The notes under the pieces are model-generated. The model did no database searches. It was given only the letters and a program-made list of their open reading frames with translations, and was not told the origin of the DNA. A stretch of 64,000 bases of DNA, taken from Lachnospiraceae bacterium P6A3 (GTDB taxonomy: Bacteria > Bacillota > Clostridia > Lachnospirales > Lachnospiraceae). How positions within the stretch are numbered: the first letter of the stretch is position 1; every line of letters starts with the position of its first letter. Position numbers and translations under genes: made by a program. Positions 22,987 to 25,722 of this stretch are shown here, piece by piece. The stretch is from contig KL370861.1 in the NCBI GenBank assembly GCA_000702085.1, positions 1 through 64,000 on the forward strand, in the 5' to 3' direction.

Positions 22987-23093
22987 GATGAAAAAGCGGC
23001 TATAACGATTACTTTACAAATAATTAACGCAGTTTATAAAAAAATAAGGATGGGTGTATTCCTATCTTTATTTTTTTATGTAATGATATGCGA

Positions 23094-23124: not shown

Positions 23125-25722
23125 ATGAATATGGCAAAAGGTCTGGTCTATACAAATGAAAAATGCGTAGGCTGTAACAAGTGCATTGCTGTATGCAGTG
23201 CATTGGGGGCCTGCATTTCTACCGATTCCGATATAAACGGTAATTCGAGAATAAACGTCGATCCTTCCAGATGTGTCGGATGCGGTGCTTGTTTTAGTGT
23301 CTGCGAACACGGTGCGAGAGAGTACTGCGATGACACGGATGCATTTTTTAATGACCTGGCTTCCGGCAAGGAAATCTCTCTTTTGGTCGCACCCTCATTT
23401 CGCGCCAACTATCCCGATGAATACGAAAAAGTACTCGGCGGTCTTAAGGCCCTGGGTGTCAAACATATTATCAATGTAGCCTTCGGTGCGGATATCACCA
23501 CCTGGGGCTATATCAAGTACATTCGGGAAAACGGCTTTACGGGCGGTATTTCACAGCCCTGTCCTGCGGTTGTCACATATATCGAAAAGTATCTTCCGGA
23601 ACTTCTTCCTAAGCTTTTCCCCGTACAGAGTCCTCTTATGTGTGCGGCCATTTATGCGAGAAAAGAACTGGGGATTACTGATTCATTTGCATTTATAAGT
23701 CCCTGCATAGCCAAAAAACTGGAAATAGACGATCCCGAAAACTCGGGTCTGGTAGATTACAACGTAACCTTCAACCATCTGATGAAGGTGGTTCGTGAGC
23801 GCTCGCTTTACGGAGAGCCTGCCACAGACGAGATAGAATACGGACTCGGCTCCATTTATCCTATGCCCGGCGGCCTTAAGGATCATGTGAAATGGTTCAT
23901 GGGAGACAGTGCTTTTATCCGCCAGATCGAAGGCGAAAAGCAGATGTATGAATATCTCAGAAAACAGTCCGCACACCTGGCCGGTAAGGATAATCCTTTC
24001 CTGTTTATCGATGCGCTTAATTGCAAGGACGGCTGTTTGTGCGGAACCGGTACGGAACCCGAACTTGCCTTTACCGATAAGGCATTGTTCAATCTTCTGA
24101 AGATCCGTGAAAATCTGAAAAAAGAAAACGATGACTCGTCTCTTTCACGCTCGCTCACTCCGGAGCAGCGTCTGGAAAAGCTGAATAAACAGTTTGAAAA
24201 TCTGCATCTGTCCGATTATATACGTCACTATACGGATCTTTCTTCCAAGTGCGCGATCAAGATTCCGAGTGAAGAAGAACTTGATAATATCTTCCTTACC
24301 ATGGATAAAGATACTCCGGAATCCCGCAGGATTAATTGCGGATCCTGCGGATACAATACCTGTAAGGAAATGGCTACGGCCATATTTAACGGATTCAATC
24401 ACCGGGACAATTGTGTTCACTACCTGAAGAATGCCATTGAATCCGAGCACAAGAGCCTTATCTATAATGCCCAGCATGACGAACTTCTCGGACTTTACAA
24501 CAGAAGCTATGCCATGGATCTTCTTATCATTAATTCGGATTACTGGAAGAATGCTTCCTTTGTGATGGCCGATATTGACGGTTTCAAGGGAATCAATTCC
24601 ACTTACGGACATGAACTTGCGGATCAGATCCTTATGAATGCCGCAGTAGGTCTTTTGAAACTGGCCAAAGAAAAAGGCTGGCTTCTTGCAAGATACGGCG
24701 GTGACGAATATCTGATATGCCTGCCCGAACCCATGACGGAAGATCATCCTTTCATGGAAATGATACGCGGTGTGTTTGAACAGCCCTTCAGACTTGGAAG
24801 CATAGAACTTCAGCTTTCCGCATGCCTTGGTATTTCCAATTCGGACGGTCAGCTCAGTGCCGAGGAACATATAAACCATGCCGAAGAGGCAATGCGTGAA
24901 GCCAAGAAACTCGGCCATGGTCATAGTGTTTTTTACAGTGAGATACTTCAGGAAAAGGCGAGAGAAGAAAAGATTATTCGTGAGAAGATCGTCGATGCCT
25001 TTGAAAATGACGGCTTCTATATAGTATATCAGCCCAAGGTTGATGCACAGTCGGTTAAGCTCTGCGGATACGAGGCTCTTATCAGAATGAAAGAACCGGG
25101 ATTCGGTCCCGCGCAGTTTATCCCTATCGCCGAAAAACACGGATGGATTTGGCGTATCGGGCGTATGACCACGGAACTTGTGGTGCGTCAGCTGGCCGAG
25201 TGGAGAGATGCGGGATATGAGCTTCATCCTGTCTCGGTTAATTTCTCCAGCAATCAGCTGAGCGATACGGGTTATGTCGATTATCTCGAAGAACTTCTGA
25301 AGCAGTATGACATTCCTCCAAAGTATGTGGAAGTGGAGATAACGGAAGGAATCTTCCTCGACAGGTCTTCCCAGGTTGAGGCTTTGTTCAAGAGATTTAA
25401 GGAGCTGGGAATAAGGCTTCTCATGGATGATTTCGGAACGGGATATTCGTCCCTCGGTTATCTGACATATATTCCCGTCGATACCATCAAGCTTGATAAG
25501 TCACTGGTGGACAATTATCTGATCGACGGTAAGGATGCATTTATCAATGACGTTATCAGACTGGTTCATCATCTTGATAAAGAAATGACCATTGAAGGCG
25601 TTGAGGAGAAGTGGCAGTACACCAGACTCAGGGAGTTCGGAGCAGATACGATCCAGGGATATTATTTCAGTAAGCCGCTGCCTGCGGATGAAGCGATAAA
25701 TTTCCGCCCGGGCGTAGATTGA
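23125..25722 (+). CDS. [FeFe]-hydrogenase-like iron-sulfur sensor fused to GGDEF-EAL
   Basis: An 865-residue cytoplasmic protein with four parts. First, two [4Fe-4S] ferredoxin motifs (CVGCNKCIAVC near 14-24, CVGCGACFSVC near 51-61). Second, a [FeFe]-hydrogenase large-subunit-like domain with the three H-cluster loops in changed form: SQPCPAVVTY near 143, SPCIAKKLEI near 192, and NCKDGCLCGTG near 299. Third, a further Fe-S motif CGSCGYNTC near 405. Fourth, GGDEF (YGGDEY near 525) and EAL (YEALIRMK near 650, DDFGTGYSSL near 769, IEGVEE) domains. It resembles sensory rather than catalytic hydrogenases, so it probably couples redox or H2 state to cyclic di-GMP turnover. The EAL metal residues look intact. 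The start at 23125 is weak: the nearest AAGGA is 14 bases away. Confidence 0.85.
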   Translation: MNMAKGLVYTNEKCVGCNKCIAVCSALGACISTDSDINGNSRINVDPSRCVGCGACFSVCEHGAREYCDDTDAFFNDLASGKEISLLVAPSFRANYPDEYEKVLGGLKALGVKHIINVAFGADITTWGYIKYIRENGFTGGISQPCPAVVTYIEKYLPELLPKLFPVQSPLMCAAIYARKELGITDSFAFISPCIAKKLEIDDPENSGLVDYNVTFNHLMKVVRERSLYGEPATDEIEYGLGSIYPMPGGLKDHVKWFMGDSAFIRQIEGEKQMYEYLRKQSAHLAGKDNPFLFIDALNCKDGCLCGTGTEPELAFTDKALFNLLKIRENLKKENDDSSLSRSLTPEQRLEKLNKQFENLHLSDYIRHYTDLSSKCAIKIPSEEELDNIFLTMDKDTPESRRINCGSCGYNTCKEMATAIFNGFNHRDNCVHYLKNAIESEHKSLIYNAQHDELLGLYNRSYAMDLLIINSDYWKNASFVMADIDGFKGINSTYGHELADQILMNAAVGLLKLAKEKGWLLARYGGDEYLICLPEPMTEDHPFMEMIRGVFEQPFRLGSIELQLSACLGISNSDGQLSAEEHINHAEEAMREAKKLGHGHSVFYSEILQEKAREEKIIREKIVDAFENDGFYIVYQPKVDAQSVKLCGYEALIRMKEPGFGPAQFIPIAEKHGWIWRIGRMTTELVVRQLAEWRDAGYELHPVSVNFSSNQLSDTGYVDYLEELLKQYDIPPKYVEVEITEGIFLDRSSQVEALFKRFKELGIRLLMDDFGTGYSSLGYLTYIPVDTIKLDKSLVDNYLIDGKDAFINDVIRLVHHLDKEMTIEGVEEKWQYTRLREFGADTIQGYYFSKPLPADEAINFRPGVD

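Follow-up and report, generated by a model that had tools for sequence, protein, structure and literature searches.

A hydrogenase-like iron-sulfur sensor fused to GGDEF and EAL domains in Lachnospiraceae, a candidate redox switch of cyclic di-GMP breakdown

The window analyzed here, a stretch of 64,000 nucleotides from Lachnospiraceae bacterium P6A3 (assembly GCA_000702085.1, contig KL370861.1, positions 1 to 64,000), contains a gene for a protein (P0001) in which an iron-sulfur (Fe-S) sensor related to [FeFe] hydrogenases is fused to GGDEF and EAL domains. On balance, we favor the interpretation that this protein is a cyclic di-GMP (c-di-GMP) phosphodiesterase switched by a hydrogenase-derived redox relay that carries only [4Fe-4S] clusters, the diiron half of the H-cluster most likely being absent. 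Sensory [FeFe] hydrogenases are usually taken to be H2 sensors, and the abundance of group C genes has been taken to suggest general H2 sensing in ruminants (PMC6776011). If the family works without a diiron site, part of the H2-sensor annotations would instead describe redox sensors.

Results

The sensor keeps the cubane ligands of the H-cluster

The Pfam domain order is two ferredoxin-type [4Fe-4S] motifs, the H-domain, an Fe-S domain (PF04060), GGDEF and EAL, each recognized by at least one Pfam model above its curated cut-off (Table 1). The H-domain matches PF02906 with 98.9 bits (E 5e-28, cut-off 22.1), the N-terminal motifs match Fer4_7 over residues 13–64, and the EAL domain scores well above its cut-off of 31.3 bits. 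Seven of the eight cysteines of the N-terminal clusters are invariant in a 37-row alignment (A3) and the eighth, C20, is kept at 90% or more; the four cysteines of the C-terminal cluster motif (C405, C408, C413 and C430) are invariant. The mean pLDDT of the AlphaFold model is 89.6 overall, and for the sensor part it is 93.3. Structure matches were found with Foldseek (the VIA list is a second comparison of the Foldseek matches only): the model resembles the [FeFe] hydrogenase CbA5H (Z 34, 2.8 Å over 344 residues) and the CpI entries (Z about 30), and its GGDEF-EAL half resembles the PA0575 and DosP structures. Profile match and predicted fold thus place the sensor part in the [FeFe]-hydrogenase H-domain superfamily. 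A predicted helix (residues 431–450) follows directly on C430, the final cysteine of the C-terminal cluster motif, and runs into the GGDEF domain.

The three H-cluster loops were placed by profile alignment to solved [FeFe] hydrogenases, with PCP on CCP (Pro on the first Cys), SPCIAKK on MPCIAKK and NC..GC on AC..GC. Because loops 1–3 align with the ligand loops of the solved hydrogenases, all four cysteines of the [4Fe-4S]H cubane are present by alignment (C146, C194, C300 and C304). These four are complete in 99 of 100 aligned sensor rows, a set that includes 15 of the 49 named loci of methyl-accepting chemotaxis proteins (MCP) and leaves out L013, L019 and L026, which have interrupted frames. 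C299 (CpI numbering), the proton-transfer cysteine of [FeFe] hydrogenases, is replaced in all 100 rows, by Pro in 96 of them. Features of the catalytic groups A and B1 were not found in the protein: loop 1 reads PCP rather than TSCCP, and the models TIGR02512 and TIGR04105 reach 99.4 and 132.7 bits against cut-offs of 405.95 and 450, respectively.

A sequence-only reading of the same DNA had proposed an Fe-S hydrogenase-like sensor fused directly to GGDEF-EAL, with ferredoxin-type clusters before the H-domain, an extra Fe-S motif after it and three altered loops. The Pfam domain order and the hydrogenase fold confirm the fusion, the Fer4 and PF04060 matches confirm the flanking clusters, and the loop letters that it quoted are correct and fall on the ligand loops. 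Whether the cysteines lie at a cluster site is addressed indirectly, by the alignment of the loops and the match of the fold to hydrogenases. A sensing rather than a metabolic role is likewise supported. The suggestion that catalysis is unlikely is reasonable, but the loss of C299 alone is no proof, as TamHydS, which lacks C299, turns over H2 at a low rate once it is given a diiron site (PMC8163306).

Maturases were not found in many genomes that encode the sensor

HydE, HydF and HydG are the maturases that assemble the [2Fe] half of the H-cluster. The source genome comprises 2.98 Mb in 9 contigs and is 98.97% complete; HydG and HydE have no match in it at E 0.001. HydF (cut-off 325.55 bits) was not found either: there were 13 partial matches, which cover its GTPase part, and the best of them reached 88.5 bits. 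Among 250 Lachnospiraceae genomes, HydG passes its cut-off in 111 and HydF is detected at 1e-40 in 137; 140 genomes have either. The sensor subfamily occurs in 52 of the 250 (E cut-off 6.4e-58, placed at a gap in the match list), 30 with HydF or HydG and 22 with neither, so that sensor and maturases are not associated (odds ratio 1.09, p 0.88, in statistics that ignore kinship). Three of these 22 genomes are under 90% complete, and HydE was found in one (G086) of the 15 sensor genomes lacking HydF and HydG in which it was sought. A search of the genomes of 43 of the 80 named loci (42 genomes, genome completeness not included) detected HydF in 9 of the 27 genomes that hold the 28 named GGDEF-EAL orthologues, and in 6 of the 15 genomes of named MCP or histidine kinase (HK) relatives that were tried.

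The entropy of the loops compared with that of the rest of the domain is 0.18 versus 0.66 with HydF (9 rows) and 0.24 versus 0.82 without it (20 rows). Compared with the remainder of the domain, the loop residues are equally constrained whether or not HydF is present. Loops that stay conserved even in genomes where no known machinery for adding the diiron unit was found are best read as a [4Fe-4S] site.

The absence of maturases does not by itself prove that the H-cluster is missing; this argument was rejected because a group A control only partly tracks HydF and HydG. Several results from this control and from the source genome weigh against our interpretation. A strong match to group A hydrogenases occurs in 163 genomes, of which 58 also lack HydF and HydG; the hydrogenases and these maturases are associated (odds ratio 2.7, p 3e-4), although far from fully. 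HydE passes its cut-off in three of these 58 genomes and gives a weak match in one and none in 54. Seven of 21 maturase-negative group A sequences have TSCCP together with the ligands of loops 2 and 3 (L085, L088, L090 and L093–L096), and the source genome itself encodes a B1 hydrogenase (L001, 1327–2835 on the minus strand, contig C1) whose 564.6 bits exceed the cut-off of 450. In the sensor itself, K197 is retained in all 29 members of the window protein's GGDEF-EAL clade, which fits the presence of [2Fe]; its CpI equivalent, K358, contacts a [2Fe] cyanide.

Canonical-looking hydrogenases without maturases imply that many of these proteins work without the diiron unit or that there is an unknown maturation route. 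Retention of hydrogenase genes by many Lachnospiraceae genomes without detectable HydE, HydF or HydG is thus a puzzle of its own, which points to unknown maturation or to a non-hydrogenase function. We consider it very unlikely that a route to the H-cluster free of HydE, HydF and HydG operates in many such bacteria, in which case the fusion protein and its MCP sister would be H2 sensors and the A and B1 hydrogenases would be active. In rumen butyrivibrios, H2 has been ascribed to the Ech hydrogenase, and the lone HydA large subunit of twenty butyrivibrio genomes was judged possibly inactive (PMC4478896).

Two further observations concern these genomes. TSCSP stands in place of TSCCP in 29 of 40 readable group A sequences of Lachnospiraceae (L077–L116, P0002 included). 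It was rejected as a mark of maturase-less enzymes, being present in 14 of the 21 maturase-negative and 15 of the 19 readable maturase-positive sequences (a set of 20, of which L098 was unusable). HydF occurs without HydG over its cut-off in 29 of the 250 genomes, for example G025, and HydE is present in G025, G071 and G243; in the 29, either the HydG test alone misses the gene or HydG is really lacking. The gene hydG has been reported missing in some acetogenic clostridia that have HydE and HydF (PMC9431212).

Conserved EAL residues point to c-di-GMP hydrolysis as the most likely output

All 34 GGDEF-EAL fusions retain the eight EAL signature residues that were checked. The GG[DE]E[FY] motif is intact in only 6 of the 29 members of the window protein's clade (the window protein, L117, L118, L119, L127 and L152) and in none of the five members of a second GGDEF-EAL clade. 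The window protein has GGDEY at this site, with no RxxD, the inhibitory site motif of GGDEF domains, upstream of it. Because EAL is intact throughout and the GGDEF motif mostly not, the conserved activity is most likely hydrolysis of c-di-GMP by EAL, GGDEF being regulatory; in the window protein's own lineage GGDEF may also have cyclase activity. This narrows the earlier proposal of c-di-GMP turnover to breakdown by EAL in place of a balanced turnover.

It is highly improbable, however, that regulation in the window protein's lineage acts on a diguanylate cyclase, as part of a bifunctional enzyme. GGDEY is retained in the window protein and its nearest relatives L117–L119, which favors this idea, but the GGDEF motif is not intact in 23 of the 29 members of the clade, all of which have an intact EAL site, and the window protein shows no RxxD site.

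The sensor is found with several outputs

A scan of the named genomes confirmed at least 561 relatives among at least 589 candidate stretches, and the outputs were read for the best 80. These comprise 28 GGDEF-EAL proteins, 49 MCPs (two at a contig edge) and three histidine kinases with a receiver domain (REC). Titles of 51 of the 80 name a Lachnospiraceae bacterium, and many of these stem from samples of the rumen or of other parts of the ruminant gut. Among the records with the MCP form, those of Lachnospiraceae bacterium AD3010 and YSD2013 carry no MAG label. The nearest relative among the matches listed is 91% identical over the sensor. In the 250-genome sample, the outputs are GGDEF-EAL and MCP or HK, each with or without REC, and some of the HK proteins also have Hpt or PAS; the labels of 53 family rows (MCP, HK or GGDEF-EAL) were set by hand and all borne out by blastp.

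Two trees were built, the first of 119 rows under a simple model, in which long branches were flagged, and the second of 73 rows, without L057, L058, L061 and near-duplicates. The GGDEF-EAL label requires two changes on both trees, and a single clade for the GGDEF-EAL rows is rejected on the 73-row tree (approximately unbiased test, p 0.002), the clade having been named after the first tree was seen. Since the outputs vary and GGDEF-EAL needs two changes, the sensor looks like a portable cassette. The source genome has a second sensor copy, fused to an MCPsignal domain (L002, 472–2421 on the minus strand, contig C2, match at 843216–844514); it is a probable soluble chemoreceptor for the same signal as the fusion protein.

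Thirteen relatives of about 580 amino acids (L037–L049, labelled PAS) form a separate clade, with PAS in both of the two that were scanned. In 12 of the 13, loop 1 has Cys at 299; it reads TTCCP in 11, SSCCP in L044 and SVCP in L049.

Gene, start and neighborhood

Coordinates are collected in Table 1. An alternative in-frame ATG lies at 23050, 25 codons upstream of 23125. The later start is preferred because most fusion orthologues have no room for the extra codons: the open frame leaves fewer than 25 codons upstream in 23 of 28, and no more than 11 in L117–L119, the nearest relatives. A chance or frame artefact is ruled out by the Pfam E-values, the conserved orthologues and the AlphaFold confidence.

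The neighbors encode a LytTR regulator, a flavin reductase, a methyltransferase, a HAD hydrolase, a LUD protein, a thioesterase and an FBP aldolase. None was accepted as an operon partner, each having a counterpart at no more than four of the 28 fusion loci, mainly L117–L119 (several loci end at contig ends). Because its neighbors recur at so few loci, the fusion gene seems to stand alone. No sigma-70-like promoter site was found upstream of it. No clear membrane helix was found in the protein either: the highest 19-residue hydropathy is 1.54, in a Cys-rich ferredoxin motif, and the usual cut-off is 1.6. The protein would thus be soluble and cytoplasmic.

Table 1. Features of the fusion protein and their positions in the window
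Feature	Residues	Positions	Strand	Basis
Fusion-protein coding sequence (P0001), 865 aa		23125-25722	+	Open frame with stop, Pfam domains
Two N-terminal [4Fe-4S] motifs, Cys 14, 17, 20, 24 / 50, 53, 56, 60	13-64	23161-23316	+	Fer4 family matches
H-domain Fe_hyd_lg_C	84-307	23374-24045	+	Pfam match, hydrogenase fold
Loop 1, ISQPCPAVV; C146 = CpI C300, P145 replaces C299	142-150	23548-23574	+	Profile alignment
Loop 2, FISPCIAKKLE; C194 = C355, K197 = K358, S192 = M353	190-200	23692-23724	+	Profile alignment
Loop 3, DALNCKDGCLCGTG; C300 = C499, C304 = C503, extra C306	296-309	24010-24051	+	Profile alignment
C-terminal cluster motif Cx2Cx4Cx16C (C405, C408, C413, C430)		24337-24414	+	PF04060 at 403-431
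Predicted signaling helix	431-450	24415-24474	+	AlphaFold secondary structure
GGDEF domain, A-site GGDEY at 525-529	449-598	24469-24918	+	Pfam, 83 bits
EAL phosphodiesterase domain, eight signature residues all present	620-851	24982-25677	+	Pfam, 202 bits

Discussion

Proposed mechanism and alternatives

In the mechanism that we propose, a low-potential donor such as ferredoxin would feed electrons to the two N-terminal [4Fe-4S] clusters, and from there they would pass to a [4Fe-4S] cubane whose ligands are the four H-cluster cysteines, the diiron [2Fe] half most likely being absent in this organism. The redox state of the domain would be passed to the region of the C-terminal Cx2Cx4Cx16C cluster, at the start of the helix that leads into GGDEF-EAL, and could set the rate of hydrolysis by a presumed EAL phosphodiesterase, in one direction or the other. 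A sister MCP receptor with the same sensor would hand the same signal to chemotaxis. In TamHydS, described as the only characterized group D enzyme, H2 is reported to alter the secondary structure and to leave the C-terminal cluster unreduced (PMC13104023). We therefore place the signal in the conformation of the domain rather than in reduction of the last cluster; by this analogy, signaling through the redox state of the C-terminal cluster is doubtful, which counts against our interpretation.

The fusion protein probably reads redox rather than H2, because HydE, HydF and HydG were not found in the source genome and the sensor occurs independently of HydF and HydG. The sequence-only reading had left both signals open for its switch; the redox part is favored by these results and the H2 part weakened. 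A true H2 sensor, in which a complete H-cluster binds H2 and controls c-di-GMP breakdown, much as HydDB supposes for group C, is in our estimate unlikely. In its favor, the pocket matches that of H2-active TamHydS at two positions (M353 to Ser and M497 to Leu), the cubane ligands and K197 are all retained, HydF is present in a third of the orthologue genomes, and TamHydS reacts with H2 despite having no C299 (PMC8163306). Against it stand the failure to find HydE, HydF and HydG in a nearly complete genome and the lack of association across the 250 genomes. Position 325 is Leu, where group A often has Gln; position 299 is Pro, where TmHydS and TamHydS have Ala. Moreover, the divergent second GGDEF-EAL clade has lost the K358 equivalent in three of its five members (L055, L057 and L058) and one cubane cysteine in one of them (L058), yet the layout is retained.

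The cubane might instead sense O2, NO or another small ligand, by damage to the cluster or by binding at an empty diiron site, with C306 as a tuning residue. The distribution of this extra cysteine (24040–24042, two residues past C304) speaks for such a role, as it is Cys in all 29 members of the window protein's clade and in only 17 of 57 MCP rows and 3 of 9 HK rows. Two retained ferredoxin-type clusters suit electron transfer better than ligand binding, however, and no ligand-specific residues were identified, so we regard this explanation as quite unlikely.

Under the redox interpretation, the fusion would couple c-di-GMP breakdown in gut bacteria directly to the redox state of fermentation. 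With the MCP paralogue, one sensor type would serve both chemotaxis and c-di-GMP.

Comparison with known systems

HydDB divides sensory [FeFe] hydrogenases into the kinase-linked C1, chemotactic C2 and phosphatase-linked C3, and gives a c-di-GMP link only for [NiFe] group 2c (PMC5037454). The proteins described here share with C1–C3 an H-domain tied to signaling outputs, and the MCP and HK relatives resemble C2 and C1, respectively. The window protein differs in its GGDEF-EAL output, which the HydDB table does not list for [FeFe] enzymes (PMC5037454). It has neither the fused MCP of C2 (linkage was looked at in ten neighbors only) nor, by Pfam, the HisKA or HATPase domain expected of C1.

In layout the window protein resembles TamHydS (group D, M2e), which by its published description has two N-terminal clusters, no C299, a Cx2Cx4Cx16C motif, no PAS, Ser at 353 (S192 in the window protein) and Leu at 497 (L298) (PMC8163306). 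Position 299 differs, being Ala in TamHydS and TmHydS and Pro in the window protein (PMC10407848), and the window protein has a fused output and a source genome in which maturases were not found. Of the proton-path residues E252 and E289 of TamHydS, the second probably corresponds to D296. TmHydS (group C, PAS-fused) has the same cluster layout ahead of a signaling domain, whereas the window protein has no PAS.

The putative [NiFe] group 2c, linked to diguanylate cyclases, is also a hydrogenase-type sensor that controls c-di-GMP (PMC5037454). It is, however, an unrelated [NiFe] protein tied to synthesis, whereas the window protein is tied to breakdown. DosP, a c-di-GMP phosphodiesterase, has the same sensor-GGDEF-EAL plan, and its model matches the GGDEF-EAL region with 252.6 bits, below the 857-bit cut-off, in line with the structural match of that half. 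DosP senses O2 by haem-PAS, and in the window protein the sensor is an Fe-S hydrogenase module. Nar1 and Narf are hydrogenase-like proteins that retain the cubane but have no diiron site; they are eukaryotic Fe-S assembly factors without a signaling output. In a literature search that left most subscription papers outside its reach, we found none that describes a fusion of an [FeFe] H-domain with GGDEF or EAL. Kinase, chemoreceptor and phosphatase links are known for sensory [FeFe]-type proteins, and a putative output of the c-di-GMP phosphodiesterase type appears to be new among them.

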